40,143 bases of DNA from Bacillota bacterium (GTDB taxonomy: Bacteria; Bacillota; Sulfobacillia; Sulfobacillales; Sulfobacillaceae). The DNA lies in assembly GCA_021784595.1 (NCBI GenBank), contig JAJYHT010000074.1, positions 1 through 40,143 of the forward strand, written 5' to 3'. Of this stretch, positions 2,326 to 26,860 are shown one piece after another. Each line of letters opens with the position of its first letter. Position 1 is the first letter of the stretch. The position numbers and the translations under genes are program-made. Below the pieces are notes generated by a model that worked only from the letters and a program-made list of their open reading frames with translations, was not told where the DNA came from and did not search any database.

Positions 2326-3420
2326 CTACCCGAGTCGGTGCAGCCGATTATCCGCATAGGTAAAAAATTGTTGGTAGGCCTGACAAAAGTAGTCCACTCC
2401 GCCTACACTGCCTGCGTCATCACCGCGGTTGCGGGGACACCCTCCTTGGCAGCCGGACCGCCACTGGCAAGATTGGCATGCGGTTGCCAATGATGCTTTC
2501 AACTGGCGAAACCGCCGATACACGGGACTTCTCAACAGCGTTGCTAATCGGTCATCCCGTATATTTCCCATACGCCACTGCGGTCCTAAATAAAAATCGC
2601 ACGGGTACACATCGCCATTTTGTTCAATCACCAGTGTCGGAGGACACATTTCCGCTAGGGTACACTGTTCGGGTTCGAGACCGACGTACCGTGACAATAC
2701 ATTATCGAAAAACCGAATGGACATTTTCGGTTGGCCATCGTTGTACCATTGGTCAAACGTCTGGCACAAAAATCTCCCATAGTCCTCGGGAGTAATCTCA
2801 TAACGGCCCGGGTGTTCAGGATTCTGAGCCAGAAAGTTCATGGCCGGAATAAATTGAACCCACCGCAATCCTTCGGACTGATAGAACTCAAACAAGGCGT
2901 CGACGCGGTCTACGTTGCCCGGATGCACCACCGTCAATATATTGAAGTCAACGTTGTTACGCTGTAGGTGATCAATCCCCCGCATCACCCGACGAAACGA
3001 TCCCTGTCCGTGTCGATCAACCCTCCGCGCGTCATGAATAGTTTCTGGTCCGTCCAAACTGACGCCAACCAAAAAATGATACGTACGGAAAAACTCGGCC
3101 CAGGCATTATTGATCAAGACACCATTAGTCTGGATGCCATTACTGATGACCGTGTGGTTCGGCGCATACTGCGCTTCTAGCGCCACCACCCGCTCAAAAA
3201 ACTCCCGCCCCGCCAACAAGGGTTCTCCGCCCTGCCATGCCAGGGATGCGCTACCGCGAGCATACGACGACATATAGTCGGCCATAAAACGCTCGAGTAA
3301 ATGCGGGTCTATGGCCTCCTGTGCACGTCCCGGGTTTCCCTTTACCCGGCTGTAATAGCAATAGTCACATGCTAAGTTACAGGACTCGGACACCGTTTTA
3401 AACATCACTGCCAGGGCCAT
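2326..3420 (-). CDS. anaerobic sulfatase-maturating enzyme (radical SAM, SPASM)
   Basis: Radical-SAM enzyme that oxidises the active-site Cys or Ser of sulfatases to formylglycine in the cytoplasm, without oxygen. I start at the ATG of 3418-3420 because GAAAGGAGAG lies 8 bases before it; an in-frame start 11 codons upstream has no such site. With 364 residues, the radical-SAM motif is CNLACDYC (Cys14, Cys18, Cys21), the SAM-binding GGEP motif is near residue 64, and SLDGP follows. The C-terminal SPASM region has the ordered cysteines expected for two auxiliary 4Fe-4S clusters (253, 259, 274, 305, 308, 314, 318, 346), including GDVYPCDFYLG and CQGGCPRNR. Length and motifs match anSME. It follows three sulfatase genes on the same strand, one dead, one carrying the Cys-type motif, so the functional link is strong. 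Confidence 0.92.
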   Translation of the reverse strand: MALAVMFKTVSESCNLACDYCYYSRVKGNPGRAQEAIDPHLLERFMADYMSSYARGSASLAWQGGEPLLAGREFFERVVALEAQYAPNHTVISNGIQTNGVLINNAWAEFFRTYHFLVGVSLDGPETIHDARRVDRHGQGSFRRVMRGIDHLQRNNVDFNILTVVHPGNVDRVDALFEFYQSEGLRWVQFIPAMNFLAQNPEHPGRYEITPEDYGRFLCQTFDQWYNDGQPKMSIRFFDNVLSRYVGLEPEQCTLAEMCPPTLVIEQNGDVYPCDFYLGPQWRMGNIRDDRLATLLRSPVYRRFRQLKASLATACQSCQWRSGCQGGCPRNRGDDAGSVGGVDYFCQAYQQFFTYADNRLHRLG

Positions 3421-3513
3421 CGGTCCCACTCTCCTTTCATCGCGCTTTACCATCCATCCCTCGCGAACGGAAAGACTGTACTGCTGCCAAGAAGTCTCGC
3501 AATGGTGTCCGTT

Positions 3514-4550
3514 CTAAGAGGTCAGTTCTGAAAGGGAACTGTCTTTGGCATCTAAAGGTACGTCTGTAGAGTCGTATGTGCTAAAATGCACGATTGACTT
3601 ATGAGTAGCCGTTCGGATCCCCCGAAAGGGATCATACACGATGTGATAAGTCTTTTCGGCAAATACGTCCGCGACTGATAGGATTCTCTGCACCACATTG
3701 GCCACAGGCAACGCCCATACAACGTTGCCGGGACAAGAAGTTCTAGTGCTTCTAAAATCGTCGGCAAGACATCAACATGACTGAAGAGGTCGGAAAATGT
3801 CCCGGTCGCTAAGGACACTTCAATTCCAGGATCATACAGCGTCCCTTTGGCTCGCGGAATGGCAATCCCATGCTCAGAGGTAAAGATGACCTACGTATTG
3901 TGGCGCAACCCCAATGCCTCCGCTGTGTCAAGAGTGGGACCGATGCCCCGGTCCAACGCATAAATTCCCCCCCTGAAAACGAGCCCTCTCTTCATCGCTA
4001 CCGGGGTACGGTGGCAACCACCGAAGCCGATCCTGTTCCTAACGCTCAGTCGAGCGGATTCCCCCAGCCGATGAGTATCACCAAACCCGATTTCTATGTA
4101 AAACGGTTTCCGCGCGGATCCCTCGCAATTCCGGAAGTGCAACCATTGCACCACCTTTGGGCTAACCACGCAGCTTTGCCCGCCTAGTTCCTACTCGTCA
4201 GATTCCAGCTCATACACTTTATCATTGCTTGTTACATGTTGAATCCGAACAGCGCGGTATTATACCCACTATTCTTAAGTTATCGCGCCATAGAGGTTTC
4301 TCTCATAGGTAAATGCAAGGCCAATTCGCCGTGAGTCAACCCCATTACGCCGCTCGCATGGGGATAGCGTCCCGTTGCCAGGGCTGCGCATGCCGGAGGG
4401 CATTGCGGTGCCGCGCAGAAACTTTGCTCAAATCGCCCCCCGCGCTGCCAACGCATCCAGATTGGGCGATTGCACGCTCCGTACTCCATAGCACCCTAGA
4501 TGCCGACCTCAATCATGAGTGGTTATGAGTACAATATTAGGCTGCTCCAT
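3514..4550 (-). pseudogene. sulfatase (third copy), multiply frameshifted
   Basis: The whole length of a sulfatase can be traced across changing frames. From the ATG at 4548-4550: PNIVLITTHD then a stop; then SPNLDALAARG; then QCPPACAALATGRYPH, which is the catalytic box CxPSRxxLxTG with the Ser and Arg lost. Next come PFYIEIGFGDTHR (central region), a stretch ending FTSEHGIAIPRAKGTLYDPG (metal-site His-Gly region), then SHVDVLPTILEAL (typical C-terminal subdomain entry) and a tail ending at 3514. At least four frame changes or stops are needed. The start lies 20 bp after the stop of the 4571-5983 gene and the end about 95 bp before anSME, so it was an operon member. The damaged catalytic box shows the decay is not only a sequencing artefact. 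Confidence 0.82.
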
Positions 4551-4570: not shown

Positions 4571-5983
4571 TTACACAAAACCGGCGTCGGCCTTGTCCTG
4601 CGAGACGGTGGAGCGATAATACCGACGAATGGGCGCCACGCTCGGGTGCACCGTGTCCGGCAATTGGACGGGCAACGCCGCTCCCAAAAATTCTTCCAGC
4701 CGCTGGCGCATCTGCTGCACCACGTCAGCACGGTGCGGTGCTGCATCCAGCAATTCTTGCGGATCGTTTCGGAGGTCATACAACCGCTCATCGATGTCGG
4801 GGTGTTCAAAATTGACAATGTAATTCCACTGGGAATCTCTTACGGCCGCGTAATTGCCCCATCCTGTGACAATCCAAGGGCGGGGCGCAACCGCACTGCC
4901 GGGCCACACATTGTGTCCCGCGACTGGGGGATGGGCGACATGCAACAGATCCAGCATTGTGGGAAACAGATCATGGCTTTGCACCAATGCGGATTCTTCT
5001 TGGCGTTGCGGATATTGCGGGTGACGTACGGACCAAATTAATTGCGTGTTGTGGCTGAATAAATGGCTCGGATGCTTGGAGAAACGGCCGTGATCCAACA
5101 GTTCGGTGCCATGATCGTTTAACAAGACTACCACGGTCCCGTCCCACAAGCCATGGGCTTTGAGGCTGTCCACCAACTGCCCGACCCAATGGTCCACGAA
5201 AGTGAGGTAGCCCAGATACAGGTGGCGCACCCGTGCCGCTTCGGCCGCACTTAAATCGGCCTCCCGCATCCCGTAGGGGTAAATAAACTCGATGCCGTGA
5301 TATGCTCCATAGATCGGGTCAACATAGGCGCGGGGCGGATCCCATGGCTCATGAGGTCCAAACGAGTCTACCCACAGCATAAATGGTTCTGCAGCGCGAT
5401 GGTCGGCAACCCATTGGATTGCCCGGCCGAACACTTGAGCGGTCAGCCAATCCGCTTCCGTCACACGGTCTCGGGTATTCAGCAAGTATTGTGTAAGAAC
5501 CGGATGCTGGCGCGGATCGGGATCCCTCACGTAAGGGGTTAAGGCATCGTGCGGCAACTGGCCACTGCGAAAATTATCGCTTTCATAGCCACGAATGAAT
5601 TCGTAGGACAAAAACCCCCGGGTGAAATTCATCGTCGGTTTAAACATATGGTAAGTGTCGCTAATCAGGCCGGTTTGATAGCCCTGATCCAACAAGATTT
5701 CTGCTAACGTCGGTTGGGTGGGCGGAATCTTGTGCCACCCGCGGCCCGTAGGCCACAGCCCCTCGGTATCATAGTCAAACCGCCAGGGGAAGGATCGCTC
5801 CCCGGTAAAATAGGCTCGGCGCATCGGAATCGTCGGTTGTCCTTCGCCAAAGGCTTGCATAAACTCCACGCTATTTCGCCGAAGGGCGTCCAAATGGGGC
5901 AAACTCACGGTCCACGGTGCCCGATGATTCAAGAGATCCCAGCGAAAGGTGTCTAAGCAGACAAACACCACGTTATAACGCAT
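4571..5983 (-). CDS. sulfatase-family hydrolase with Thr at the nucleophile position
   Basis: A 470-residue protein of the alkaline-phosphatase/sulfatase superfamily, without signal peptide, so cytoplasmic. The ATG at 5981-5983 follows AGAGGAG by 7 bases. Metal-site residues are visible at the N-terminus (FVCLDTFRWD, Asp11) and in VLLNDHGTELLDHGRFSKH. The position normally holding the formylglycine precursor (C/S-x-P-x-R) reads TIPMRRAYFTG, with Thr51 replacing Cys or Ser. Known maturation enzymes convert Cys or Ser, not Thr, so this protein either uses Thr directly, as phosphodiesterases of the NPP branch do, or has an unusual mechanism. C-terminal DERLYDLRNDPQE is the usual sulfatase tail. 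First gene of the unit sulfatase-like / dead sulfatase / anSME. Substrate unknown: sulfate ester or phosphoester of a sugar are both possible. Confidence 0.85.
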   Translation of the reverse strand: MRYNVVFVCLDTFRWDLLNHRAPWTVSLPHLDALRRNSVEFMQAFGEGQPTIPMRRAYFTGERSFPWRFDYDTEGLWPTGRGWHKIPPTQPTLAEILLDQGYQTGLISDTYHMFKPTMNFTRGFLSYEFIRGYESDNFRSGQLPHDALTPYVRDPDPRQHPVLTQYLLNTRDRVTEADWLTAQVFGRAIQWVADHRAAEPFMLWVDSFGPHEPWDPPRAYVDPIYGAYHGIEFIYPYGMREADLSAAEAARVRHLYLGYLTFVDHWVGQLVDSLKAHGLWDGTVVVLLNDHGTELLDHGRFSKHPSHLFSHNTQLIWSVRHPQYPQRQEESALVQSHDLFPTMLDLLHVAHPPVAGHNVWPGSAVAPRPWIVTGWGNYAAVRDSQWNYIVNFEHPDIDERLYDLRNDPQELLDAAPHRADVVQQMRQRLEEFLGAALPVQLPDTVHPSVAPIRRYYRSTVSQDKADAGFV

Positions 5984-6536
5984 AGCTCACTCCTCTTCCT
6001 ATTTATGATAGTAGGTTTTTGCACCCACTTTACTTGGGGAAATTGGTACATCCGATGTTAAGGTTCCGACCCGCCCAACCTAGTCCCCTGCTCGATGCAT
6101 GAAGCTCGGAAATTCCGCCATTCTAATAGACAGGTGAGATTTATGCATTAGTATCGTATGTCCGCTATATCCGGGGCCGTTTCCAGTTGGTGCCTCCCAT
6201 GGACCCGTCCGAAGAATTTGGTGTTGACCCACTTTTTATTCTGGTCTATAAGCCAAAGAGCTCGAACCCCCTTCTTCTCGACCGTCAATGAGGCAGCATC
6301 GTCTGGAGAGTACGGACATTTCTTGTCCAGGGGTGCCCCGTCCTCCCCCGGGATCACGAAGTGCATAAGCGTACACGCCTGCCGCATTGGAAGACCTCGA
6401 CCGTGGTGCTAACGTTGCGGGGGAGCACCTACCCCCCGCCAGCATACAGCACTATATGGCCCTTACTCCACACTTACCTGCCTCACCCCGAAGCCTGCGA
6501 AATATGCGGTGAGAGGGGAATCGCGACCATGTTCGG
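5984..6536. other. spacer between two sulfatase genes
   Basis: 550 bp between two same-strand sulfatase genes. Apart from the ribosome binding site of the downstream gene and a weak minus-strand ORF at 6148-6387, I see no recognisable gene, RNA or terminator. An AT-rich TATCAT about 35 bases before the downstream start could be a -10 box for the sulfatase/anSME unit, but no matching -35 stands out. Confidence 0.4.
6148..6387 (-). CDS. unassigned 79-residue ORF, possibly a remnant
   Basis: An open frame whose product has ordinary protein-like composition, including a run RALWLIDQNKKWVNTKFFG, but no recognised motif and no clear ribosome binding site before the ATG. It lies in the spacer between two sulfatase genes and may be the leftover of a deleted gene. 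Listed because it is the only candidate in this spacer; it may not be real. Confidence 0.18.
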   Translation of the reverse strand: MRQACTLMHFVIPGEDGAPLDKKCPYSPDDAASLTVEKKGVRALWLIDQNKKWVNTKFFGRVHGRHQLETAPDIADIRY

Positions 6537-7847
6537 TTAGCGACTAGGATCAATCCACCCTGCTGTCTTTACTTCTATCGGCTTGACAGTTAGCCCCCCC
6601 GTTCGGCTCCACCAATCGTCTACCTGGACACGTAAATCTGTTTTAATGTCTTGATAGGACGGATTGTCCGCCTGGTTAACCAGTTCGTGTGGATCGTCTT
6701 CCCGGTCGTACAATTCTTCCGCCTTATCCTCGAAATAATATACATACTTCCAGTGCGGGGTGATCAGGCCTCGCAATGGATGAAACCCCCAATAGGCCTT
6801 CCAATGTTCAATATATATCATTTGTTCCCCGCTAATTTCCTGGGCGGTGAGTTTGTCCACCAGCGATGCTCCATGGAATTTTTCCGGCACAGGCAATCCC
6901 GCTAATTCCGCCAAAGTTGCTGGTAACGACACATTGGATACCAGATCCGAAATCACCTTACGAGCTGGATTACGGTTCGGATCATAAATGATTAGAGGAA
7001 TTCGATATAATTCCTCGTAGGACAGAACTCCTTTGTAGCGAAGGCGATGGCTGCCTTGCATATCGCCGTGATCCGTGGTAAACACCACTACTGTGCGGTC
7101 AATAATCCTTCGTTGCTCAAGGATGTCCAACACCCTCCCGACATTCCAGTCGAGGTAGGAAACTTGAGATCGGTAATTTCTTGCATCTTCACGTACTTGT
7201 TCCTCAGTTAACAAGGATTCTCCATAGGCAGCACGGATTTTTTGCCAGGAAGGTTTACTCGACAAATCATCCTGATAAAAGCTGACTGGTACGGGCATAT
7301 CTTCGAGTGAAAACTGATCCACATACGGATCGATCGCCCGAAACGGGGGATGGGGAGCATACCACGAGATGACGAGAAAAAAGGGTTGCTGGTCTGACAC
7401 TTCGGATAGGAAATTAAGCGCTTTTGCCGTCGCCCGTGCGTCCAATCCCTGCTGCGTTTGTTCACTAGGGTCAATCGTACCATGATCGACACCATCTTCG
7501 CGATAATCTATAGTGTCAAACCCATGGTCTTTAATATCGGCAAATAAATGCCACTTGCCAAAATAGGCGGTGTGATACCCAGCTTCCCTAAAGTGCTTTC
7601 CTATGGTGCGATACTGCTGGGACAGCGCGTGACCGATTTGAAGTACCCCTACCTCGTGGGGGTAGCATCCCGTCATCATCGCCGCCCGCGATGGGGTGCA
7701 CTGCCCGGATGCGCAATAGTTATGAGAAAACCGCACACCCCGCGCGGCCAGTTTATCCAGGTTAGGCGTTTTATAAGAAGAATTCACGCACCCCAATGCT
7801 TGTGCCTGTTGTTGATCTGTCACGATCAGTACAACATTCTGTTTCAT
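6537..7847 (-). CDS. Cys-type sulfatase, cytoplasmic
   Basis: A 436-residue sulfatase (type I, alkaline-phosphatase superfamily). The ATG at 7845-7847 follows AGAGGAGCG by 8 bases. Residues: NVVLIVTDQQ with metal Asp11; the formylglycine box CTPSRAAMMTG with Cys50, the residue expected to be converted by anSME; FGKWHLF with the conserved Lys-His; WYAPHPPF; and FTTDHGDMQG with the Asp-His metal pair. The C-terminal EELYDREDDPHELVN is the usual sulfatase tail. There is no signal peptide: the fold begins at residue 3, so it should desulfate an imported substrate in the cytoplasm. It follows the serine hydrolase by 237 bp on the same strand, and anSME lies about 4 kb downstream. Exact substrate unknown; a sulfated amino sugar is a guess from context. 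Confidence 0.92.
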   Translation of the reverse strand: MKQNVVLIVTDQQQAQALGCVNSSYKTPNLDKLAARGVRFSHNYCASGQCTPSRAAMMTGCYPHEVGVLQIGHALSQQYRTIGKHFREAGYHTAYFGKWHLFADIKDHGFDTIDYREDGVDHGTIDPSEQTQQGLDARATAKALNFLSEVSDQQPFFLVISWYAPHPPFRAIDPYVDQFSLEDMPVPVSFYQDDLSSKPSWQKIRAAYGESLLTEEQVREDARNYRSQVSYLDWNVGRVLDILEQRRIIDRTVVVFTTDHGDMQGSHRLRYKGVLSYEELYRIPLIIYDPNRNPARKVISDLVSNVSLPATLAELAGLPVPEKFHGASLVDKLTAQEISGEQMIYIEHWKAYWGFHPLRGLITPHWKYVYYFEDKAEELYDREDDPHELVNQADNPSYQDIKTDLRVQVDDWWSRTGGLTVKPIEVKTAGWIDPSR

Positions 7848-8084: not shown

Positions 8085-9122
8085 TCACGGGAACAGGGCG
8101 TAAGCCACCGCGTTATGAAACTGGCGGCGAAGGCTCCCAATGTCTATGTGCCGTCCGAAATGCACCCGATTTGTCAAAAGCACTGCCCATGCGCCACTGG
8201 GACGGTCGAAGATCGTCGAAGTCCCAGTAAATCCTGTATGGCTAGCCACCGTGTCGGGCCACAAATCCCCGCTGATGTCTTGGCTATCGCCCCGGAGCAC
8301 CCATCCCCAGCCCCTACGCCCCGTCAACCCAGGCGTCTGTAATCCTACCGCGTGCTCGCAGGTATTCTGGGCCAATGGTCCGGGGCCGCCCACCCACATG
8401 CCAAGGTATCGCGCCATATCTCGTGCCGACGAAAACAGTCCTGCGTGTCCTGCGATCCCCCCCATGGCGGCTGCGGTTTTGTCATGCACCACTCCTAACT
8501 TGGCTACGCCCCGTTCCACTTCCGTCGCGGCAATATTTTTCGCGCCTGTTGGGTTAAAAGTCGTGTCATGCATCTGCAACGGGCCGAATACAGTGTCCTG
8601 CAAAAACTCGGCCAATGGCCTGCGGGAAACTTGCTCCACAAGAGCCCCGGCAATGATGTACCCATAATCACTATATGCCACGCGAGCTCCCGGTTCAGTA
8701 TCTAGAGGCTCTGCCAGGGCCGCGGCAATAATGGCGTCCGTGCCTTCAAAACGCTCCCACAAGAACGGTTTTTTTGCGACAAGTCCCGATGTGTGGGTAA
8801 TAAGATGCTTTACCCGCACCGCACGTTTGCTGACTTCCGCAAAAGCGGGAAAATAGTCGGAAAGCGGGGTGTCCAATGATATCTGTCCTCGTTCAACCAA
8901 AATCAACAGTGCAGGGAGTGTGGCCATAACTTTGGTCAATGAAGCCACATCAAAGAGTGTATCGTATTGCATTTGGCGCGCCACGGGATACACTTGTGCA
9001 AATCCACAATGAAACTGAAATAAAATCTCGGACTTTCGACCACAGATCGCCACCGCGCCCGGAATGCGATCGGATGCAACTGCATCTTCTAAAAGATCGC
9101 GCGCCGCACTAAATGCATCCAA
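8085..9122 (-). CDS. serine hydrolase, beta-lactamase/AmiE-like
   Basis: A 345-residue serine hydrolase of the class-C beta-lactamase/penicillin-binding fold. It starts at TTG (9120-9122) behind a GGGGGGAG stretch. Motif 1 is SLTK (Ser61, Lys64); motif 2 is YSD (Tyr150); motif 3 is HTGFTGTS, as usual in this branch. ITHTSGL is also typical. There is no signal peptide, so it is probably cytoplasmic. In Bacillus subtilis a protein of this family (AmiE, formerly YbbE) sits beside nagZ and murQ and removes the peptide from MurNAc-peptides; the same neighbours here (MurQ fusion, NagZ, MupG) make N-acetylmuramyl-L-alanine amidase the best inference. A generic esterase or amidase cannot be excluded from sequence alone. 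Confidence 0.8.
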   Translation of the reverse strand: MDAFSAARDLLEDAVASDRIPGAVAICGRKSEILFQFHCGFAQVYPVARQMQYDTLFDVASLTKVMATLPALLILVERGQISLDTPLSDYFPAFAEVSKRAVRVKHLITHTSGLVAKKPFLWERFEGTDAIIAAALAEPLDTEPGARVAYSDYGYIIAGALVEQVSRRPLAEFLQDTVFGPLQMHDTTFNPTGAKNIAATEVERGVAKLGVVHDKTAAAMGGIAGHAGLFSSARDMARYLGMWVGGPGPLAQNTCEHAVGLQTPGLTGRRGWGWVLRGDSQDISGDLWPDTVASHTGFTGTSTIFDRPSGAWAVLLTNRVHFGRHIDIGSLRRQFHNAVAYALFP

Positions 9123-9226
9123 TTCGCTCCCCCCTTTTTTTCCAGTCTTTTTGCCCAGTCTCTACTCTAGGTGCCAATGAGAGCTCATTTCGAAAGCTCC
9201 AATCGCAGTCAATCGGGACCATACTG

Positions 9227-10021
9227 TCATGATGATCTAAACTGTTTGACCATAGAAACAAAAGTGCGAATGACGTGAAATCCCTGTTTGCGATACAGCG
9301 GGAATGTAGCGGTGCCCTCGGTACAGGGCAGTAAATAAGCCGTATTTACGCCGCCTGTCCGGATGTATTGAAGGATAAAGCCCAACAACGCCTCCCCCCA
9401 CACTTGGGTACACGTGTACAACCTCAGCACTCTCTCGAGCCGACGGTCTTGTATCCATGTCTGGCGCAACGCTCGTTCCCATCCAACACCGAATACGCGA
9501 GCAACCACCAACGAATGGAATCGAAAGATTTTCGGCAAACCCCCACCTATAACTGCGAATCCAGCTTTGGGACGGCTCACGGTCGGCAATGGCCGGTTAT
9601 CTGCCATGTTTCGCACCATGGATACCCCTGGACGAGTGGGCTGGCATCCCTTATTGAGAAACCATTGCCAGGCCCCGGGGTAGGTTTGGCGGTCCACTCC
9701 GAGAATTAACACGTAGGGGCAGACAACGTCGAGCGTGACACGGTCATGAATTTTGGTGGTGGAGCAGAGCTCACTCCATAAACGCGTTCCCACGCCAATG
9801 GATCGGGACCGCGAATCAACTGCCATCGCACCAAGACTTTCTCACGCCATCGGTCCTTGCGGAGACCAGATCAAATCCCACAATGTGTGTTATCCTTTGC
9901 TGCCCAAAGAGGCGCCCGGGCGAAGATCGGATCACAGAGCCATCCAGTCGACCGATAACGCAGACGCCCACACCCTCAAAACGGCAGCATAATCCGCGGC
10001 TTCTGCGATCGCCACCTCCAT
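9227..10021 (-). pseudogene. GNAT-family acetyltransferase, frameshifted
   Basis: The gene starts at an ATG (10019-10021) that shares bases with the TGA of the ROK gene (TGATG), a translationally coupled arrangement. The first frame gives a good GNAT N-terminus, EAADYAAVLRVWASAL, and ends at a stop after about 30 codons. After one or two frame changes near 9830-9940 the rest continues as a long frame: SRSRSIGVGTRLWSEL (acetyl-CoA loop, a damaged form of R/QxxGxG/A), then TAYLLPCTEGTATFPLYRKQGFHVIRTF, the usual GNAT ending (Y-x-x-x-GF). The protein would have been about 260 aa. It is an acyl-CoA N-acetyltransferase of unknown substrate; the operon suggests an amino sugar. Probably non-functional. 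Confidence 0.7.
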
Positions 10022-11220
10022 CAGAAGGTCTCCTCGGGTGCGTCTAAGCCATCATCCGCAGGTGTTTGTTCCCATCGTCCGCCTAAACCGTACACCCATT
10101 TCCCCAGTGCGACCGCATTGGCCCCGTGAATTCCTACCTCCGATCCAAAGGATGAGGACCGGATCTCCAGTGCGGGTTCGTTCCAAAACCGTGTGCGGCG
10201 CTTGACTTGCTGCTGCACTTCATCTTCCATAAGAGGCCAGACGTCTGCAATCCAGCCGCCCAGCACTATCACCTGGGGATTATACATATTCACCACGGCC
10301 ACCAAAGCCGTGGCCACCACATCAATAATGTCATAATAGGTCCCCCGCTGATAGGACCGTTGAAGTGCGGTCTTGATGGTTTCCCCATCACCGACATGCA
10401 ACAGTGACTCGATGTGCGCCTGATTTAAATAGGTCTCCAGACATCCGACGTTGCCGCACCAACAGGCTTCGCCTTTCCAGTTAATGGTGATATGCCCCAA
10501 TTCACCGCCAATGCCGTTGCCCCCACCGAACACCTGGCCATCCGCCAGCACTCCCAAACCAATCCCTTGACCCGCAAATAAAAAGACCAACCACGAGGAC
10601 TGCGTGCTCCCGCCAAACAACATTTCCGCCAACGCCATGCCCCGGGCGTTGTTATCCATGACCACCGACAGTCCTGTCTCCCGGGACAAGAGTGCGGCCC
10701 ACGCCACGTGTTGCCAGTCGTACGCCAGCGACGCATAAATGGTCCCCGCAGCGGTATCCACGATCCCGGATGCCCCCACCCCGATGCCTACGATGTGCGA
10801 TTCCCGGCGCTCGCGCACGAGGTCCTTGATGACGGCGCCGATATTCTGCGCCAGTTCCTCAGGAAACGGATGGTCAGACACCGCCAGGTGCGTAAGATGC
10901 GTTACCGACCCGTCCAAATGCCCCAGACCAATGGTTATCTGGTGCCGCTGCATATGCACCGCCACTGTAAGATAATGCCCATTGCGGATAGCGAGACCAA
11001 TCGACCGCCGTCCGATTGACCGAATTTCATCGAGTGTCCCAATTTCCTGAATGTATCGCTCTTTGATCAACGCCCCGGTAATATTGGACACCGAGGCCGG
11101 TGTCAAGTGCGTCATTTCCGCCAGTTTGGCCCGGGAAATGCGCGGATTTTGCAAAATCATCCGCAACAGGAGACCGCGATTTTGTCGGTGGGCCACCGAG
11201 ATGTTAAGACCGCGCCCCAT
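10021..11220 (-). CDS. ROK-family transcriptional regulator (NagC/XylR type)
   Basis: A 399-residue protein with an N-terminal winged helix-turn-helix (about residues 12-65; SRAKLAEMTHLTPASVSNIT) and a C-terminal ROK sugar-binding domain. The ATG at 11218-11220 has AAGGAGG 9 bases upstream and overlaps the end of the NagZ-MurQ gene by 17 bp. The zinc site is visible: GELGH (His243) and CWCGNVGCLE (Cys253, Cys255, Cys260). The ROK kinase catalytic motif ENDAN is DNNAR here (residues 189-193), so the catalytic Asp is Asn191. I therefore read it as a regulator that senses a sugar, not as a kinase. It probably controls this locus, including the divergent promoters near 14.1-14.6 kb. The effector is likely an amino sugar, by context. 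Confidence 0.88.
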   Translation of the reverse strand: MGRGLNISVAHRQNRGLLLRMILQNPRISRAKLAEMTHLTPASVSNITGALIKERYIQEIGTLDEIRSIGRRSIGLAIRNGHYLTVAVHMQRHQITIGLGHLDGSVTHLTHLAVSDHPFPEELAQNIGAVIKDLVRERRESHIVGIGVGASGIVDTAAGTIYASLAYDWQHVAWAALLSRETGLSVVMDNNARGMALAEMLFGGSTQSSWLVFLFAGQGIGLGVLADGQVFGGGNGIGGELGHITINWKGEACWCGNVGCLETYLNQAHIESLLHVGDGETIKTALQRSYQRGTYYDIIDVVATALVAVVNMYNPQVIVLGGWIADVWPLMEDEVQQQVKRRTRFWNEPALEIRSSSFGSEVGIHGANAVALGKWVYGLGGRWEQTPADDGLDAPEETF

Positions 11221-13129
11221 AAATCAACGCCTCCTTCCCCCGCAGCCGTTCCAACACGGCCGTCACACTGCCTTCCAACTCCAGAGCCGCTTGTGCGTCG
11301 AACGCCGAACACCCGCTCCAGTGCATGAGCATGGCAATCGCCAGATGGCCTCGGGCTTCTGACAGCTTTGCCAGCGCCACGCCGCGAGGTTGCCCCGTAG
11401 CGATCATAAACACACGCACCGCGCGTTCGCGCAACTTGTCATTCGTGGCCACAAAATCTATCATGAGATTATCGTAACTGCGCCCCAGCGTCACCATCGT
11501 TAAGGAGGACAGCAGATTTAAGATCACTTTTTCGACGGTACCCGCTTTCAATCGCGTTGATCCCAGCAGCAGTTCCGGTCCGCTGTCCACAAATATCTCT
11601 TCGTCCACCATGCCACCCACCTTGGTTCCGCGGTTATTCACCACCGCAGCCGTAAAACAACCGCGCTGATGCGCCTCTGTAAGCGCCCCTAAAACAAATG
11701 GCGTATTGCCGTGCGCGGTTATTCCAATCACCACATCCTGCGGTTGCACATCAACTGCCATCACCTGTTTTCGTCCCTCATCAAAATTATCTTCCACACC
11801 TTCGCGCGCTTTTTCAAAAGCGGCCAGGCCGCCAGCCAAGATCGCGCGAATCCGCTCTGGGCCGATGCCAAAGGTCGGCGGGAGTTCAACCGCATCCATT
11901 ACGCCCGCGCGCCCTGCCGAACCTGCTCCCACGTAAAAAATGTGAGATCCGGACCGATACGCCTCAACCATTCGTATCACAAGGTGTTCCAATTGGGCAA
12001 TGGTTGGGCGTATGCGTTCCAGCGCTTGTTGTTCTTCAGTAATCCATCGGGTCATCAGATGGGGCAGAGGTTGGCGGTCCAACCAGCGCAAACGCGGATC
12101 CGGATGCGGTTGTTCGGTTCCAAAATGGCCACTATGGGTCGAAAGCTGATCCTGGTCCAGACGAAACGGGGTCCGTCCCCACCATTCGGCCTTCCCTAGC
12201 AGGCGATGCCTCAGAGCGGACCACACTACGGGATGGTCATCGAAAACCTGCACTGTAATTGCCTGATCCGGCGCAAGACCAATGACGGTTGAATTTTTAT
12301 AGGCCACCACGAGGCTATCCTGACCCAAGGCCGCAGAGGGGAGCGCGTCGATGCCCACCGCCACAACAGGTCCGTCGTTGTCGGGGGTTGGGTTGAGCGC
12401 CCGTTCAACACGTCGCTTAAGTTCCTGATCTTCACAGGTGACCCGAAACCGTGTCTGGGGGTCACAGGGCAACCGCTTCGGATCATCGATTAAATGAATG
12501 CTCGAGCTTCGCATGCGGGTCAAAATGGTGCCTACTGCATCACGGTCCGGTATCATTGGGGAAGGTCCTGCGACAACATGCCCCGGGGTATACCGCGTCA
12601 CCTCCACCCAATGCCACGGCGCATCCGATAAGACACCTGGCCACGGCGCGACGGTCCCAACCCCATCGAGCCACCAGTGGAGGTCGTCCGCATTGGCTGA
12701 GGTCACCCACGCCCTTCCTAGTCCAGCTTGCTGGAACCCAGCTTGGACCATTCTCCGCACGGCATCCCCCATCCAAGGCAATGCGACATCGCTGAGAGTG
12801 CCATCAACACTGCCAAATACCCCGCGGACGCCCATTTCGCGCAACCGCGACCCATACCATAACGCCACCCGATCCATCTGATCCAACGAGTCCGAAGCCG
12901 CTGCCAAGGCCGCAGTTGGCCAAAGCAGACCGTCATTTGACCAGACTCGCAATCCCTCCTCGGCAACCCATACTTCCGCGAGGGGGAATCGGTCCCGCAC
13001 CTGCCGAATGAGCGCGTGATCCGCCGTAAAGAAATCTGTCACCACGACAATGGTCGGTCCCGCGTAGTCAATTGAATGGTGCGCGTGTTCCGCAGCCGTT
13101 CCCCAGAGTGCCAGGCCCGACGATATCAC
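11204..13129 (-). CDS. NagZ-like (degenerate GH3) / MurQ etherase fusion
   Basis: A 641-residue fusion starting at GTG (13127-13129) behind GGAGGG and overlapping the previous stop (GTGA). Residues about 345-641 are a full-length MurQ (N-acetylmuramic acid 6-phosphate etherase, usually about 300 aa), which removes D-lactate from MurNAc-6P: GAGSAGRAGVMDAVELPPTF (Glu415), GVEDN (Glu446) and GSTRLKAGT are clear. The phosphate-binding loops differ from the usual GAGTSG and ASGRT, reading GAGSAG and AHGNT here. Residues 1-340 follow the order of a NagZ-type GH3: AEEG, then YGSRLREMGVRGVFGSVDG (cf. YGxxLxxxGINxxFAPVVD), then a GH3-C-like end near 265-325. The KHFPGHG loop, Asp-His dyad and nucleophile are missing, so this half is probably a non-catalytic sugar-binding or structural domain. 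The GH3 relationship is an inference. Confidence 0.85.
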   Translation of the reverse strand: MISSGLALWGTAAEHAHHSIDYAGPTIVVVTDFFTADHALIRQVRDRFPLAEVWVAEEGLRVWSNDGLLWPTAALAAASDSLDQMDRVALWYGSRLREMGVRGVFGSVDGTLSDVALPWMGDAVRRMVQAGFQQAGLGRAWVTSANADDLHWWLDGVGTVAPWPGVLSDAPWHWVEVTRYTPGHVVAGPSPMIPDRDAVGTILTRMRSSSIHLIDDPKRLPCDPQTRFRVTCEDQELKRRVERALNPTPDNDGPVVAVGIDALPSAALGQDSLVVAYKNSTVIGLAPDQAITVQVFDDHPVVWSALRHRLLGKAEWWGRTPFRLDQDQLSTHSGHFGTEQPHPDPRLRWLDRQPLPHLMTRWITEEQQALERIRPTIAQLEHLVIRMVEAYRSGSHIFYVGAGSAGRAGVMDAVELPPTFGIGPERIRAILAGGLAAFEKAREGVEDNFDEGRKQVMAVDVQPQDVVIGITAHGNTPFVLGALTEAHQRGCFTAAVVNNRGTKVGGMVDEEIFVDSGPELLLGSTRLKAGTVEKVILNLLSSLTMVTLGRSYDNLMIDFVATNDKLRERAVRVFMIATGQPRGVALAKLSEARGHLAIAMLMHWSGCSAFDAQAALELEGSVTAVLERLRGKEALIYGARS

Positions 13130-14097
13130 GCGATCCCTCCTAGTTTCCGTCCGCAGAGAATGTGCGCGCCAGACGCCGTTCGTGCTTCATAATATAAGAT
13201 CAACCCCTCTTCGGTATGCACTGGCGCCACGTAACGTAGCGACCCGTATTGGGACTGAATCCATGGACCCTCTGCCGGGATCTTGTAAAAAGTTTTCAGG
13301 TCCGCGGTCAGAGCTAGGCCGACCCGTTCCTCATAATTTTCCTCCACATCGGCCGCGCCGTCATAAAACGCCAAATAGAGCGAGCCCATTTTGACCAAAC
13401 CCGAGATCCGCGAAACCAAGGAGTCCCATCCCGTCGGCGATGATCCCAACACCTCGCCGACCCAGTTGTGGGGTTCCCCACCCACCGATATCGCCAATCC
13501 GGTATGCGAATGCACGCGACCGGTCGTAAACACATCATTGCTCGCGTGCAAATCGCCCAGAGAGTCGCCGAGATCTACCAAATCAGTTGGCGCATAACTC
13601 ACATAGAGAAAACTCAAGGGGCCCATCGGCACGAGGAGCGGATCTTTAACGGCATGTCCGCCAATCATGGAGGTATCCAATTCCGTACACCGGGCTTGCA
13701 CATTTAGCGTTTCCACCTGGTCGCCGACGAGACGGTCAATCTGCCATTGATGGGTGTCACCATTGACGTAACTGAGATACAGCGTCCATAGACCGTGATG
13801 GTGCGTCAGCGCTCCACGTTCGATCGAGGGAGAGTCTAGTTGCTCTTGGGTGACGCGCCAGACATCGTGGAATGTCACGCCATCCGCACTTTTGGCAATC
13901 CGGGCTTCATACCCTCGCCCGGATCCCCGAGGCCGTCGCAGGCGATAATATAAATACACCGTCCGGGACTCCGCATCATAATACACACCGGGGGCCCCCA
14001 CCCAATAACCTTCCTCATCAGCGGGGCTGGTGCGCACCACAAATTCCTCTCCGGTATTCAACCATTCGGGCCGAGCGACTAGTAAAGATTGTTCCAA
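13126..14097 (-). CDS. five-bladed beta-propeller glycosidase-like protein
   Basis: A protein of 323 residues resembling the GH32/43/117/130 beta-propeller superfamily: repeated strand patterns such as WVGAPGVYYDAESRTVYLYYR, WTLYLSYVNG, LSFLYVSYAP and SLYLAFYDG, each ending with an aromatic-rich blade strand. An ERGAL stretch and the KDPLLVPMG segment resemble substrate-site regions of these families. I choose a TTG start at 14095-14097 because GGAGGTAATCTCG lies immediately upstream; upstream in-frame ATG and TTG codons (14112, 14133) lack such a site. There is no signal peptide. It is the first gene of the leftward operon, just before the NagZ-MurQ fusion (4-bp overlap). Catalytic residues cannot be assigned; it could cleave a glycosidic bond or phosphorolyse one, or be a lectin-like relative. 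Confidence 0.6.
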   Translation of the reverse strand: MEQSLLVARPEWLNTGEEFVVRTSPADEEGYWVGAPGVYYDAESRTVYLYYRLRRPRGSGRGYEARIAKSADGVTFHDVWRVTQEQLDSPSIERGALTHHHGLWTLYLSYVNGDTHQWQIDRLVGDQVETLNVQARCTELDTSMIGGHAVKDPLLVPMGPLSFLYVSYAPTDLVDLGDSLGDLHASNDVFTTGRVHSHTGLAISVGGEPHNWVGEVLGSSPTGWDSLVSRISGLVKMGSLYLAFYDGAADVEENYEERVGLALTADLKTFYKIPAEGPWIQSQYGSLRYVAPVHTEEGLILYYEARTASGAHILCGRKLGGIA

Positions 14098-14138
14098 CGA
14101 GATTACCTCCATATTCTTAATTAGTTTAATCAATGATT

Positions 14139-14780: not shown

Positions 14781-16574
14781 ATGTCCGGACGTGTTATTGT
14801 GCTCGGGATGGATGCGTTGGTTTTGCCATTAATTAAACGTTTTGTTGCGGAGGGCGCACTACCAAACTTTCAACGGTTATTGAACGACGGATCATACTCC
14901 TATGCGCTATCGGTGTTACCTCCCTACACGCCAACGAATTGGGCGACCATTGCGTCCGGTGCCCTGCCGGGACGTCACGGAGCAGGCAATTGGACGGACG
15001 TGACCGTATCCGACCCTATTGGTAGAAAGGCGCGGTCAACCTTTGATGCGCGTGCCCTGCACGCAGATACTGTGTGGAATGCCGCCTCGCGCGCAGGCTT
15101 GCACACCATGCTGGTGACCTATCCTGGATCCTATCCGACTAAGTTCGCAGGCGTAACGATCGTTGCTCCGCTATACCGGGGTTTGACGGGACACGTCCTG
15201 GCATCGGGTGGAGAATATGATATCGATCTTAGTTCTGGACAACGGATTAAATTGCCGGTCAAAAGCCAGTCTTCAGGACCATTGCTTCTACCGACCGAAG
15301 ATGGTCATCAAGAACTCTATCCTGAGGGACTAGAGCATTTTTCCGGCTTCGAGATCAGCCGCGATAACCAGACCATCGCCATCTACTGGCACGATGCCCC
15401 TTTGGTTGTGTTGGCGGAAAACACCTGGAGCGCGTGGACTACTATCCCCGATGGGCATGGGGGACAAGCTTCAGTCAGATTTCGCTTGCTGAACATGACC
15501 GATCACAAGGTCCATTTGATTCGGTCCGAAATATATCCTATTCAGGGCTTTACCGACCCACCGAGCTACGCAGACGAGATATACCGCGCCGTGGGGCCGT
15601 TTTTTGAGCATCCGGCAGCAATTAATCGCGAAAGCGAGGAAGCGGTGAATGCCCTGTTGGAGGAACTTCAGGACCAAGTGGACTGGTACATTGGAGTGGC
15701 CAAGCATAGCGCGGAAAATCGTCCGTGGGATTTATTCATGACCCATTGGCACTGGATTGATACCGCGCAGCACAACTTTTTGACGGGGTTAGATCCCGAG
15801 CCCGGAGTCGATCCCGACGAGCGGGCGGTATCGATTATTCGCAAGTCCTACCAACTCGGCGACCGACTTTTAGGCGGATTTTTAGGTCAGATGAAGCCAA
15901 TGGATCATCTCATGGTGGTTTCCGACCACGGTCATGTGCCCAATCGACGCATTGCCAGCGTAACCCGACGTTTGGTGGAAACGGGTTTGGCCGTTTTTGA
16001 CGAAAAACGTTTGCCCTCTCAAGTCATTGACCGTACGCGCTCGAAAGTCTATTTACTGTCCCCGCATGAAATTGTTGTCAATCTTGAAGGTCGTAATGAC
16101 GGAGGCATTGTACCACAAACAGAATATCAAGTGGTCGCAGAGGCAGCGCTCGACGCTCTGCTCGACTGGAAAGACCCCGAGACAGGAAAACGTTTAGTAG
16201 CCTATGCTTTGGAAAGATCACATCAGCAGATCCTAGGGTATTTCGGAAGCCGAGTGGGAGATGTGATGTTCTTGTATAATTCGGGATATTCTTGGGGGAC
16301 TCCACAACACAACATGAGTGTGGGCCCGTCTGATGGCTCGTCCAATCACGGGGCCCAATTGCCGACTACAACGACTGAACGCACCGCCAACATGGCGACC
16401 TTAATGGCGTTGGGCCCTAGTATTCGGTCGGGATATGAGCGGCGGGCAGAAGACTTGGGCTACGTTTCCCTAACAGATATAACACCCCTAATCTCCCATC
16501 TCCTGGGGATCGTTCCTCCCATAGACTGCCGAGGAGCGGTCCCTCGGGACTTTTTGCAGTCCACTTTAAAATAA
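14781..16574 (+). CDS. alkaline-phosphatase-superfamily phosphodiesterase (NPP type)
   Basis: A 597-residue protein of the type I phosphodiesterase/nucleotide pyrophosphatase branch. The ATG follows AGAGGAG by about 10 bases. Motifs: VIVLGMDAL with metal Asp11; PPYTPTNWATIASG with the nucleophile region (Thr50, in the T-x-x-N pattern of NPP enzymes); THWHWIDTAQH; and VVSDHGH with the Asp-His metal pair. No signal peptide is present, since the fold starts at residue 4, so it acts in the cytoplasm. These enzymes hydrolyse phosphodiesters or pyrophosphates. As first gene of the transporter operon it may remove a phosphoester or sugar-phosphate substituent from the imported compound; this is inference. 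Confidence 0.85.
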   Translation: MSGRVIVLGMDALVLPLIKRFVAEGALPNFQRLLNDGSYSYALSVLPPYTPTNWATIASGALPGRHGAGNWTDVTVSDPIGRKARSTFDARALHADTVWNAASRAGLHTMLVTYPGSYPTKFAGVTIVAPLYRGLTGHVLASGGEYDIDLSSGQRIKLPVKSQSSGPLLLPTEDGHQELYPEGLEHFSGFEISRDNQTIAIYWHDAPLVVLAENTWSAWTTIPDGHGGQASVRFRLLNMTDHKVHLIRSEIYPIQGFTDPPSYADEIYRAVGPFFEHPAAINRESEEAVNALLEELQDQVDWYIGVAKHSAENRPWDLFMTHWHWIDTAQHNFLTGLDPEPGVDPDERAVSIIRKSYQLGDRLLGGFLGQMKPMDHLMVVSDHGHVPNRRIASVTRRLVETGLAVFDEKRLPSQVIDRTRSKVYLLSPHEIVVNLEGRNDGGIVPQTEYQVVAEAALDALLDWKDPETGKRLVAYALERSHQQILGYFGSRVGDVMFLYNSGYSWGTPQHNMSVGPSDGSSNHGAQLPTTTTERTANMATLMALGPSIRSGYERRAEDLGYVSLTDITPLISHLLGIVPPIDCRGAVPRDFLQSTLK

Positions 16575-16590
16575 GAAGGAGGGAATCACC

Positions 16591-18435
16591 ATGAAACGCG
16601 TCGTCTTGGCTGCGTCCGCCTCGGTCTTGCTACTGTCTGCGGTAGCTGGCTGTGGAACCACAGCCAAAACCTCGACAACCGCAGGCCCGCCATTTGTGAC
16701 GATTGGCACCATCATGCCGCCGGGAGCTCCTATGAACATCTTCAGTGCGAGTAGTCTGGAGCGGCCTGGAATGGACATTATGCCCTTGGCCGTGTCAAAG
16801 AATAGCGCAGACTTAAGTGCCTTTTATCCAGCCTTGGCAAGCCGCTGGAAACTCTCCAACAATGGGCGCACGGTCACCGTGTGGCTCCGACCGAATGCCC
16901 GCTGGTCCAACGGACAACCTGTGACCTCGGCCGATGTGGTCACCACCAGTGCGTGCGACGACGCGGTGGGCGTCATGCAGGCAGACGGTCTAGGCTCGGT
17001 TCGGGTATTAGGACCCAAGGAAGTGCAAATGACATTGACTCCGGAACGCACATCCACCACCTTTTTGCTGGATGTCTTGAGCAGTGACATTGTTCCCAAG
17101 CAGGTCTTTGGCGCATTATTGCCAGCCAACATCTGGTCGTTGATCCATGCCACCCAGTATACGGGGACAAATCCGTCATTGTCCAAGCAGGCACAAACTG
17201 CAACCACCCAATTGACCAGTATTGCCGACAAAATAACCGCTTTTGCCCCGGCTCATGACCTGTCTTCTGGACCGTTCGTGATTCAGGCCGTCAATCCCGG
17301 GGAAGTGATAATGCGCAAAAATCCCGATTTCTTTGCGGCTCAAAATGTGCCGGTTAATGAAGTGGTGGTGCGCAATTATACCGGAAGCGAGGAGGTATGG
17401 AACTACGCGATCTCCGGACAGGTAGATGAACTGACTGGTAATCTTCCGGTAAACATTTACAACCAGGCCAAAAAAACCCCTGGCAATGTGTTTTACAAAG
17501 TGCCAGCCTATACCATGACCAGTTTAATTTTCAACGAGCATGTTTACCCGTACAATCTGTTGGCGGTCAGGCAAGCACTGGCCTATATCATCAATCGCCA
17601 GGCCGTACAGCATGTTGCCAATCCGGTGTCAGCATCGCCGTCGCAGTGGACTGACGGCATGGTGGATGCCGCGACGCGGCAGTGGCTAACATCAACGCAA
17701 ATCGCAGCACTGAAAAAATACTCGCTCAATGTGGCCAAGGCAACGAGTCTTCTTTCGCATGCGGGGTTTAAGAAAGTCGGACAGCAGTGGATGCTGCCCG
17801 ATGGCAAGCCATGGACAGCGACCCTGACGACGGTTAGTCAGTTTAGCTCATGGATGGCCATGGCGCAGATTGTGCGCAGCGCGATGGTTAAGTTTGGGAT
17901 ACCCACCAAGGCGGTCGGAATGACGTTTGCTCAGGAGCTTCAGGCACAGTCGGCGGGGAGTCTTCCCTTGTCGTTCTGGATTGACGGGCAGGGGCCGAAT
18001 CCTTATTTTGCTTATAATCGCATCTATGGCGCGCCCGACGGATATGTAATGAAAGCGGGACGGCTGGTTCACATTCCAGCAGGGCAACTTGTTCATAGCT
18101 CCGCCGCCACTCCAGCGGCCACGAACTGGGTGGACTTTCCGACAACAGTTCCCCTGTCAGGCTATGGCACTGTCAATCCAGGGCAGTTAACACGGCAGTT
18201 GGATCAGGTGACCAATCCTGCGGTGATTCGTCGGGACACCCAAATCCTCGCCATGGTCACGAATCGCTATGTGCCCCAAATTACCATGTGGAACGTCAAT
18301 TTGACCGGATGGGTCAATACCAAGCACTTCACGGACTATCCTTTGAGCAACCATGCTCTGATGCTAGCCACGGAAGGATACTATCCTCCCATTGGTATTT
18401 GGATGATGCTTCATTATATACGCTCTCGTTCCTAA
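16591..18435 (+). CDS. ABC transporter solute-binding lipoprotein, family 5 (copy 1)
   Basis: A 614-residue lipoprotein with signal peptide and lipobox AVAGC (Cys21), anchored on the outer face of the membrane. The ATG is preceded by AAGGAGGGAATCACC. It has the shape of the peptide/oligopeptide-binding SBP_bac_5 family: PALASRWKLSNNGRTVTVWLRPNARWSNGQPV near residues 75-110 is the family hallmark region, then the SSGPFVIQ segment and LAVRQALAYIINRQAV. Family members bind peptides, nickel complexes, heme or muropeptides; with MurQ, NagZ and MupG beside it a muropeptide or amino-sugar oligosaccharide is likely. It is about three-quarters identical by eye to the next gene. Confidence 0.93.
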   Translation: MKRVVLAASASVLLLSAVAGCGTTAKTSTTAGPPFVTIGTIMPPGAPMNIFSASSLERPGMDIMPLAVSKNSADLSAFYPALASRWKLSNNGRTVTVWLRPNARWSNGQPVTSADVVTTSACDDAVGVMQADGLGSVRVLGPKEVQMTLTPERTSTTFLLDVLSSDIVPKQVFGALLPANIWSLIHATQYTGTNPSLSKQAQTATTQLTSIADKITAFAPAHDLSSGPFVIQAVNPGEVIMRKNPDFFAAQNVPVNEVVVRNYTGSEEVWNYAISGQVDELTGNLPVNIYNQAKKTPGNVFYKVPAYTMTSLIFNEHVYPYNLLAVRQALAYIINRQAVQHVANPVSASPSQWTDGMVDAATRQWLTSTQIAALKKYSLNVAKATSLLSHAGFKKVGQQWMLPDGKPWTATLTTVSQFSSWMAMAQIVRSAMVKFGIPTKAVGMTFAQELQAQSAGSLPLSFWIDGQGPNPYFAYNRIYGAPDGYVMKAGRLVHIPAGQLVHSSAATPAATNWVDFPTTVPLSGYGTVNPGQLTRQLDQVTNPAVIRRDTQILAMVTNRYVPQITMWNVNLTGWVNTKHFTDYPLSNHALMLATEGYYPPIGIWMMLHYIRSRS

Positions 18436-18470
18436 CGTTGACTCTTCAAACCATAAGGGGGAACTCATTG

Positions 18471-20291
18471 ATGAAACGCATTTTCTGGACAGCATCCGCC
18501 TCCGTCTTGTTGCTGTCTGCGGTGGCAGGCTGTGGAACCACGAGCAAAACATCCACTGCCGCTCAAACTCCATTTGTTACCATTGGCAATATTTTGGCTC
18601 CCGGCGCTCCGATGAATATTTTTTCCAGCAATACCTTAGAGGAACCTGGCATGGACATTATGCCGCTGGCCGTGTCGCAGAACAGCGCCAATCTCAGTGC
18701 CTTTTATCCCGCTTTGGCGAGTCATTGGCAACTCTCCAACAATGACCGCACGGTTACGGTCTGGATCCGCACCAACGCCCGCTGGTCCAATGGGCAACCA
18801 GTGACCGCGCAGGATGTGATGACCACTATGGCCTGTTCCTATGCGGTGGGGACGATGCAGGCGGACGGACTGGGTTCGGTGAAGGTCCTGGGCCCCAAGG
18901 AAGTGCAGATGACCTTGGCGCCGGGCATCACATCCAATACCTTTCTCTTAGATGTCTTAACCACCAACATTGTTCCTACCAGTGTCTTTGGCCCCTTGTT
19001 ACCCCACGACATCTGGACCTTGATTCATGCCACCCAATATAAGGGAACGAACCCAACACTGGTCAAGAGTGCCCAAACCGCCACGACTCAATTGACTGCC
19101 TTGGCCGACAAAATCACGGCGTATGCGCCCACCCACGATGTGTCATCGGGGCCGTTCGTGATTCAAGCCGTGAATCCTGGGGAGATGATTTTACGAAAAA
19201 ACCCCGACTTTTTTGACGCGGCCCATGTGCGGGTCAATGAGGTGATACAGCGAAACTACGCGGGAAGCCAGGAGGTGTGGAATTACGCGATTTCCGGCCA
19301 GGTGGACGAGCTTACGGGAAATGTTCCCGTAAACATTTACAACCAAGCGAAAAAAACCGCGGGCAATATCTTTTACAAAGTACCGGCTTACTTAATGACC
19401 ACGTTAATGTTTAATGAGCATATCTACCCATACAATCTCTTGCCAGTGAGGCAAGCGCTGGCGTACATTATCAATCGGCAAGCGGTGCAGCATGTCGCCA
19501 ACCCGGTATCCGCATCGGCCTCGCGGTGGAGCGACGGGATGGTGGACTCGGCAACGCGGCAGTGGCTCACCCCGTCACAAATTGCTGCACTGAAGCAGTA
19601 TCGTGTCAATTTGGTCAAGGCCACAAGCCTTCTTACGAGTGCCGGATTTAAAAAAGTTGGACAGCAGTGGATGCTGCCCAACGGCAAGCCATGGACCGTC
19701 ACCCTGACCACAGTCAGCCAATTTAGTTCCTGGATGGCGATGGCGCAGGTCGTTCGCACCGCGCTGGTTCAGTTTGGTGTTCCCACCCAGATCGTTGGCA
19801 TGACATTTCCCGAGGAACTGCAGGGCCAATCGCAGGGGAAGCTCGCGTTATCATTCTACGATGACGGAATGGGGCCCAATCCGTATTTTGCCTTCAGCCG
19901 CATCTATGGCGCGCCTGACGGTTATCTGGTCAAAGGCGGAAGGCTGGTTCACAACGCCGCTTCGGATCCGACGGGGGGCAATTGGGTTGACTTTCCGACG
20001 ACCGTCTCGTTGCCAGGATACGGCACCGTCAACCCAGGTCAATTAACCCAACAACTGGATCAGACTCACAATCCGGCGCTGGTTCGCCGTGATACCCAGA
20101 TCTTGTCTATGGTCACCAATCGCTACGTGCCGCAAATTACGATGTGGAACGTCGCACGCACGGGATGGGTCAATACCAAAGACTTCACCGACTATCCTCT
20201 GAGCAACAAGACGCTTATGGTGGCGACCTACGACTTTGAACCGCCCGTCGGCATCTGGATGATGCTCAATTACATTAGACCCAAGTCCTGA
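18471..20291 (+). CDS. ABC transporter solute-binding lipoprotein, family 5 (copy 2)
   Basis: A 606-residue paralogue directly following copy 1. The start is the ATG at 18471-18473 after AAGGGGG; an upstream extension in frame runs through the end of copy 1 and is not real. It has the same lipobox AVAGC and the same SBP_bac_5 pattern (ASHWQLSNNDRTVTVWIRTNARWSNG, SSGPFVIQ). The two copies align over their full length; differences cluster in the ligand-binding half, for example the segment after residue 500 (copy 1 has an Ala/Ser-rich insert, HSSAATPAAT, where copy 2 is shorter). The duplication suggests two ligands or affinity classes feeding one transporter. Confidence 0.93.
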   Translation: MKRIFWTASASVLLLSAVAGCGTTSKTSTAAQTPFVTIGNILAPGAPMNIFSSNTLEEPGMDIMPLAVSQNSANLSAFYPALASHWQLSNNDRTVTVWIRTNARWSNGQPVTAQDVMTTMACSYAVGTMQADGLGSVKVLGPKEVQMTLAPGITSNTFLLDVLTTNIVPTSVFGPLLPHDIWTLIHATQYKGTNPTLVKSAQTATTQLTALADKITAYAPTHDVSSGPFVIQAVNPGEMILRKNPDFFDAAHVRVNEVIQRNYAGSQEVWNYAISGQVDELTGNVPVNIYNQAKKTAGNIFYKVPAYLMTTLMFNEHIYPYNLLPVRQALAYIINRQAVQHVANPVSASASRWSDGMVDSATRQWLTPSQIAALKQYRVNLVKATSLLTSAGFKKVGQQWMLPNGKPWTVTLTTVSQFSSWMAMAQVVRTALVQFGVPTQIVGMTFPEELQGQSQGKLALSFYDDGMGPNPYFAFSRIYGAPDGYLVKGGRLVHNAASDPTGGNWVDFPTTVSLPGYGTVNPGQLTQQLDQTHNPALVRRDTQILSMVTNRYVPQITMWNVARTGWVNTKDFTDYPLSNKTLMVATYDFEPPVGIWMMLNYIRPKS

Positions 20292-26677: not shown

Positions 26678-26860
26678 GCAATCCAACTGCCCGGGGGCTA
26701 ATGGCGCCAGCACCAGACTCGCTTTGTCCATCGGATTTAGGGGACTTACTAGGCAATGGAGCCAATGGGCTAGCGCTCCAACCTGTTTTTCATCATCTTT
26801 CTCAGTGCCATGACATCTTAAGAGAGAATTTCAATGCGCAAGAACGCAGGAGGCGATAGG

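Follow-up and report, generated by a model that had tools for sequence, protein, structure and literature searches.

A sulfatase-fold protein with threonine at the formylglycine position, a candidate phosphoester hydrolase of Bacillota sugar operons

The window analysed here, a 40,143-nucleotide stretch of Bacillota DNA (contig JAJYHT010000074.1), carries on its minus strand a gene for a sulfatase-like protein, hereafter the Thr gene, whose start codon is immediately preceded by a good ribosome-binding site, AGGAAGAGGAG (Table 1). The product matches the Pfam Sulfatase family PF00884 with 111.4 bits over residues 4-348 (curated cut-off, 25 bits), and a whole-genome search revealed only two further PF00884 proteins, namely an apparently intact Cys-type sulfatase on one side of the gene and a decayed one on the other. 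A sequence-only reading of the locus had placed the gene directly beside a dead sulfatase and the maturase gene; the dead sulfatase is real, but it stands between the Thr gene and the maturase, and the intact sulfatase is absent from that reading. The maturase is the sole anaerobic sulfatase maturase of the genome, a search of which found no FGE, and the intact sulfatase is its obvious client. The gap of 553 bases upstream of the Thr gene (5984-6536) shows no homology in the loci compared and contains a minus-strand fragment without a Pfam match.

Table 1. Features of the locus and predicted active-site codons of the Thr enzyme (window coordinates)
Feature	Position	Strand	Remarks
Anaerobic sulfatase maturase (radical SAM/SPASM)	2326..3453	minus	TIGR03942, 396 bits (cut-off 349)
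Decayed Cys-type sulfatase (pseudogene)	about 3517..4508	minus	at least 4 frame pieces; between Thr gene and maturase
Thr-type sulfatase-fold hydrolase gene	4571..5983	minus	470 aa, ATG at 5983
Lys303 codon	5075..5077	minus	predicted His211 partner
Asp290-His291 codons	5111..5116	minus	predicted metal ligands
His211 codon	5351..5353	minus	predicted general acid, together with Lys303
Codons 109-112, DTYH	5648..5659	minus	Asp109 in place of sulfatase Lys of GKWH
Arg55 codon	5819..5821	minus	Arg of CxPxR box; invariant in full-length orthologues
Thr51 codon, ACG	5831..5833	minus	formylglycine position of TxPxR
Asp11 codon	5951..5953	minus	predicted metal ligand (= Asp14 of choline sulfatase)
Cys-type sulfatase, apparently intact	6537..7847	minus	CTPSR, GKWH, DHG
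Beta-lactamase/PBP4B-like serine hydrolase	8085..9122	minus	conserved neighbour in G001, G003
ROK/NagC-like regulator	10021..11220	minus	conserved neighbour
MurQ-type etherase, long N-terminal extension	11204..13129	minus	conserved neighbour

Both in the window and in three relatives (G001-G003), the Thr gene belongs to an operon-like row with the MurQ-type etherase, the ROK regulator and the beta-lactamase-like hydrolase. The extension of the etherase, about 340 residues without a Pfam match, is kept in the same three relatives, and the adjoining minus-strand gene at 13126-14133 belongs to a conserved family of neighbours that matches neither Pfam nor NCBIfam and recurs near Thr-type genes at four other loci (L032, L033, L041 and L042). 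On the plus strand, 14781-16574 encodes a second member of the alkaline-phosphatase superfamily (PF01663), which G001 and G003 also conserve and whose TPTNWAT motif likely provides another Thr nucleophile; it is followed at 16591-20291 by two tandem, closely similar solute-binding proteins, the first of them SBP_bac_5, which precede an oligopeptide-type ABC transporter. MupG and NagZ-like GH3 genes lie farther along the same strand (20338-21459 and 26834-28321) and, taken together with the MurQ-type etherase, suggest a cluster for peptidoglycan (MurNAc) or amino-sugar recycling. A search for anti-phage defence matches returned none.

The ORF translation and profile alignments confirm the threonine first read at the formylglycine site: Thr51, in the context GQPTIPMRR, aligns with the Cys of xPCxPxR in known enzymes, while the other residues of the sulfatase/PMH catalytic set (D11, R55, H211, D290, H291 and K303) are retained in the alignment. 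Choline sulfatase coordinates its metal through Asp14, Asp296 and His297, holds the sulfate oxygens with Lys102 and Asn75, contacts the nucleophile with His104 and protonates the leaving group through a His201-Lys309 pair (PMC5870055). D11, D290, H291, H211 and K303 all have their matches in this enzyme, and the residue corresponding to Lys102 is Asp109. Because residues 110-112 include a one-residue insertion relative to sulfatases, the alignment-based mapping around 109-112, and with it the register against the sulfatase His, hinges on where that insertion is placed; D109 and H112 may be ligands for a second metal, the NPPs having a two-metal site with an extra Asp, His and His.

The AlphaFold2 model used throughout was built from 34 sequences (pLDDT 89.8, pTM 0.91), a model from 11 orthologues having been poor (pLDDT 65), and opens directly with the first beta strand of the core, residues 4-10, with no leader or membrane part seen. 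Its structural neighbours include the S1 sulfatases 6hr5 (S1_25, Z 35.7) and 6hhm (S1_7, Z 35.6), the PMH 4uph (Z 32.1) and the Thr enzyme YejM (Z 31.4), and since all three groups are among the nearest structures, the predicted fold does not discriminate between sulfate and phosphate. The S1 formylglycine sulfatases, including choline sulfatase 6fny, share the fold (Z 31.9-35.7), the metal ligands, the Arg of CxPxR and the His-Lys acid pair, but carry Cys or Ser where the window protein has Thr, which places the latter outside the [CS]xPxR signature, and the sulfate-binding Lys of GKWH where it has the Asp109 of DTYH. The PMHs RlPMH and ArPMH (Z 31-32) likewise have the Asp, Asp, His metal set, the Arg and the His-Lys pair, and their phosphodiesterase activity would be a further likeness to that predicted for the window protein; their nucleophile, by contrast, is formylglycine made from Cys. 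In the PMHs a Thr occupies the position of the sulfatase His (PMC5488252). LtaS, EptA, MCR and YejM place a Thr nucleophile at the same point of a metal-bound core, yet they have membrane domains, act outside the cytoplasm and lack TxPxR, whereas the window protein reads TIPMR and has no membrane part. The NPP phosphodiesterases, to which the protein had initially been compared, have the superfamily and a Thr nucleophile in common with it, but the PF01663 match is weak (35 bits, best stretch 258-296) and structure comparison puts sulfatases, PMHs and YejM closer.

Threonine as such is also less unusual in PF00884 than the sequence-only reading implied, as 30 of the 59 Pfam seed sequences carry it; the SulfAtlas authors excluded such proteins from family S1 and gave TxNxE as the motif of one Thr group (PMC5066984). 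LtaS, EptA and YejM use a Thr nucleophile, and in the Mg-dependent phosphatase YejM the T302A substitution costs about 70% of the activity (PMC7576196). A Thr nucleophile in this fold is thus already known, and it is the TxPxR/DTxH form that was not found described in the literature and structures searched, where no characterised TxPxR-Thr enzyme was found either. A sequence search of the PDB for members of the clan formed by these proteins and their closest Cys-type relatives found none, and we know of no clan member that has been characterised.

Thr51 is present in 10/10 full-length orthologues from other genomes (57-75% identity, one Bacillota family) and invariant across the 11 aligned orthologues. 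The same holds for an alignment restricted to 11 Thr types, which takes in an alphaproteobacterium and other Bacillota families and in which D11, R55, D109, H211, D290, H291 and K303 are further invariant columns; R55 and D11 are each found in 18/19 members when one decayed Ser51 member is counted. This member (locus L025, genome G033) combines Ser51 with Leu55 in a short, probably decayed frame. The Thr51 codon varies between ACG, ACC and ACA among orthologues, with ACT added among the wider Thr types, and wherever synonymous sites are unsaturated dN/dS comes to 0.06-0.09; purifying selection on the gene is strong. A local mutation or sequencing error at Thr51 was accordingly rejected. The same data render it highly improbable that the protein is a catalytically dead relative retained for binding or regulation, as its departure from the sulfatase norm at the nucleophile and the decayed sulfatase next to it could suggest, since all the other catalytic residues are invariant across lineages, the selection is strong and Thr has been proven to act as nucleophile in this fold (PMC7576196).

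A narrow-alignment profile search of genome contigs yielded nothing but orthologues in Bacillota. G001 carries a partial gene with 94% identity to that of the window, and its two Thr orthologues (contigs C43 and C88, 72% and 94% identical) lie in different sugar operons. Remoter Thr types include genes of further Bacillota families (G380, G358), paralogues within the same family (L014 and L022, clan members with DTPP in place of DTYH) and a gene of the alphaproteobacterium Martelella mediterranea, 34.5% identical and carried by a conjugative plasmid. On this plasmid, pMM259 (L060), the gene occupies 9004-10368 with IS3 and IS6 transposases and metal-transport genes nearby, a setting that suggests horizontal movement; neither an FGE nor an anaerobic maturase was seen next to it.

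Asp109 is a trait of the whole clan, opposed to the Lys of GKWH found in 20 of 22 other sulfatases compared, and W83, R131, N169 and E212 are also common to its Thr types and Cys types (SxPCMPARR). A 71-protein tree, from which the columns of the nucleophile and of residues 107-114 had been left out, unites the clan (100/100) and shows the Cys types as a single clade (100/99) lying within the Thr types. Such nesting of the Cys type within a Thr grade is suggestive only, because an AU test holding the Thr types as one clade gave p 0.059 and thus did not reject Thr monophyly. The Cys-type clade is found in Rhizobium, haloarchaea, Deinococcus, Streptomyces, Clostridia and Enterobacteriaceae, where its members are annotated merely 'sulfatase'; they share with the Thr type D109, W83, R131, N169, E212, the rest of the site and neighbours for sugar transport and catabolism, but pair Cys51 with His110. 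At a threshold of 80% or more the two types differ at just four positions, namely 12 (Thr/Ser), 51 (Thr/Cys), 110 (Thr/His) and 214 (Trp/Phe), and residue 110 is His in 30/30 Cys types and in 0/19 Thr/Ser types, the Thr types having Thr or Asn there. An FGE gene lies near the Cys-type gene in Chelativorans, Salipiger and Streptomyces, and the Cys-type members are presumably formylglycine enzymes. The replacement of His110 is consistent with a Thr enzyme that has no formylglycine hemiacetal to resolve.

The neighbouring maturase raises the possibility that Thr51 is itself modified, the anaerobic maturase oxidising it to a ketone (a 2-amino-3-oxobutanoyl residue) whose hydrate mimics the formylglycine diol. 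The Pro and Arg of TxPxR are those of maturase recognition; the maturase and Thr genes lie close together in the window, in G030 (L031) and in G380 (L106), and are direct neighbours in G358 (L109); and within the family a maturase is present in 8/11 genomes with a Thr gene as against 0/10 without one (p 0.001). Conversion of threonyl peptides to the ketone in vitro has, moreover, been reported for an anaerobic maturase, so the earlier statement that maturases acting on Thr are not known may be incorrect as it stands. The co-occurrence, however, is confounded, because the maturase adjoins other sulfatases: in five relatives (G001, G007, G010, G016 and G018) it stands beside another sulfatase homologue on a contig different from that of the Thr gene. 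The Thr gene is also kept in G019, in which neither maturase nor FGE scores over the cut-off, and in G014, which has an FGE and no maturase, although these absences are uncertain, both genomes being 95% complete. Further, the His110 universal in the Cys-type sisters is missing, and the SulfAtlas authors note that formylglycine derived from Thr is not known and that a ketone would result (PMC5066984). We therefore consider maturase-made ketone formation very unlikely, and slimmer still is the chance that the enzyme works as a sulfatase via the ketone hydrate, with the ketone as a carbonyl cofactor residue other than formylglycine. The pairing with other sulfatases in the five relatives and one Thr-bearing genome without a detectable maturase indicate that the maturase is probably not the partner of the Thr enzyme, and G001 and G003 keep the orthologue in the same operon without an adjoining sulfatase or maturase. 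The suggested relevance of the adjacent maturase and dead sulfatase to the Thr enzyme is thus not borne out, and dependence on the maturase inferred from position was rejected as a general rule, with the direct pair in G358 as the exception.

Further relatives place the Thr gene beside Gfo/Idh proteins, xylose-isomerase-like TIM barrels, an FGGY kinase, a class II aldolase, a GH78 rhamnosidase or a fucose/sulfoquinovose-isomerase-like protein that scores below its family cut-off. The shared theme of the neighbourhoods is cytoplasmic sugar catabolism, often with a ROK regulator. A sulfatase gene adjoins the Thr gene in G030, G016, G007, G018, G010 and G380. At two loci this neighbour is of Ser type (VSTPSR; L035 11524-12999 and L036 6628-8103), and its homologues in G016 and G007 are of Cys type (VCTPSR).

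Such frequent sulfatase neighbours would fit a sulfated substrate equally well, and the protein could be a true sulfate-ester hydrolase or sulfuryl transferase using unmodified Thr51, a new sulfatase subtype that shares work on a sulfated sugar with the adjacent Cys sulfatases. The S1 sulfatases are its best structural matches, and hydroxyl nucleophiles can work unmodified in this scaffold. A change to Ser in nine sulfatases and PMHs costs only about tenfold, similarly for sulfate and phosphate, and Ser variants of sulfatases still act on sulfate with about a tenth of the catalytic efficiency (PMC5488252); choline sulfatase, too, is a multiple-turnover enzyme when unmodified (PMC6189696). Against this, the Lys that binds the sulfate oxygens is Asp109 throughout the clan, a sulfated Ser or Thr intermediate is known to be hard to resolve without formylglycine (a trapping study is cited to this effect via PMC6189696), and no sulfatase or maturase adjoins the gene in G001 and G003. 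We regard sulfate ester hydrolysis as rather unlikely, while recognizing that the Lys-to-Asp109 exchange alone cannot separate phosphate from sulfate, because the Cys-type sister clade has D109, W83, R131 and N169 too.

The combined loss of the sulfate Lys and of the Cys-coupled His argues, with moderate force, that the Thr is unmodified and acts on a phosphoester. Of the two possibilities raised at the outset, a phosphoester hydrolase or a new sulfatase subtype, what stands is that a Thr-nucleophile hydrolase in the sulfatase/alkaline-phosphatase fold is the natural reading, the class of substrate being a matter of inference. We propose, at what we judge to be even chances, that the protein is a cytoplasmic hydrolase of sugar-linked phosphoesters with an unmodified Thr51 nucleophile, similar in this respect to LtaS and YejM. 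Thr51, not oxidised and bound to a single divalent metal held by D11, D290 and H291, would attack the substrate; R55 would orient the nucleophile and the transferred group; H211 and K303 would protonate the leaving alcohol; and the resulting phospho-Thr intermediate would then be hydrolysed by water. It counts against this proposal that Pro and Arg of the sulfatase box persist in TxPxR, where other Thr proteins of PF00884 read TxNxE. The substrate would most likely be a phosphoester, probably a diester, on an imported sugar, because the gene travels with genes for ROK regulators, sugar isomerase, kinase, aldolase, Gfo/Idh or MurQ proteins; a link to GlcNAc phosphodiesterases (PMC10704324) was rejected, as those enzymes belong to another superfamily.

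One compact clan holds Thr types and presumed formylglycine types with otherwise near-identical sites, a naturally occurring exchange of nucleophile, linked to residue 110, that bears on the origin or loss of formylglycine chemistry. By the same token, many genes annotated 'sulfatase' by PF00884 alone may not encode formylglycine enzymes.
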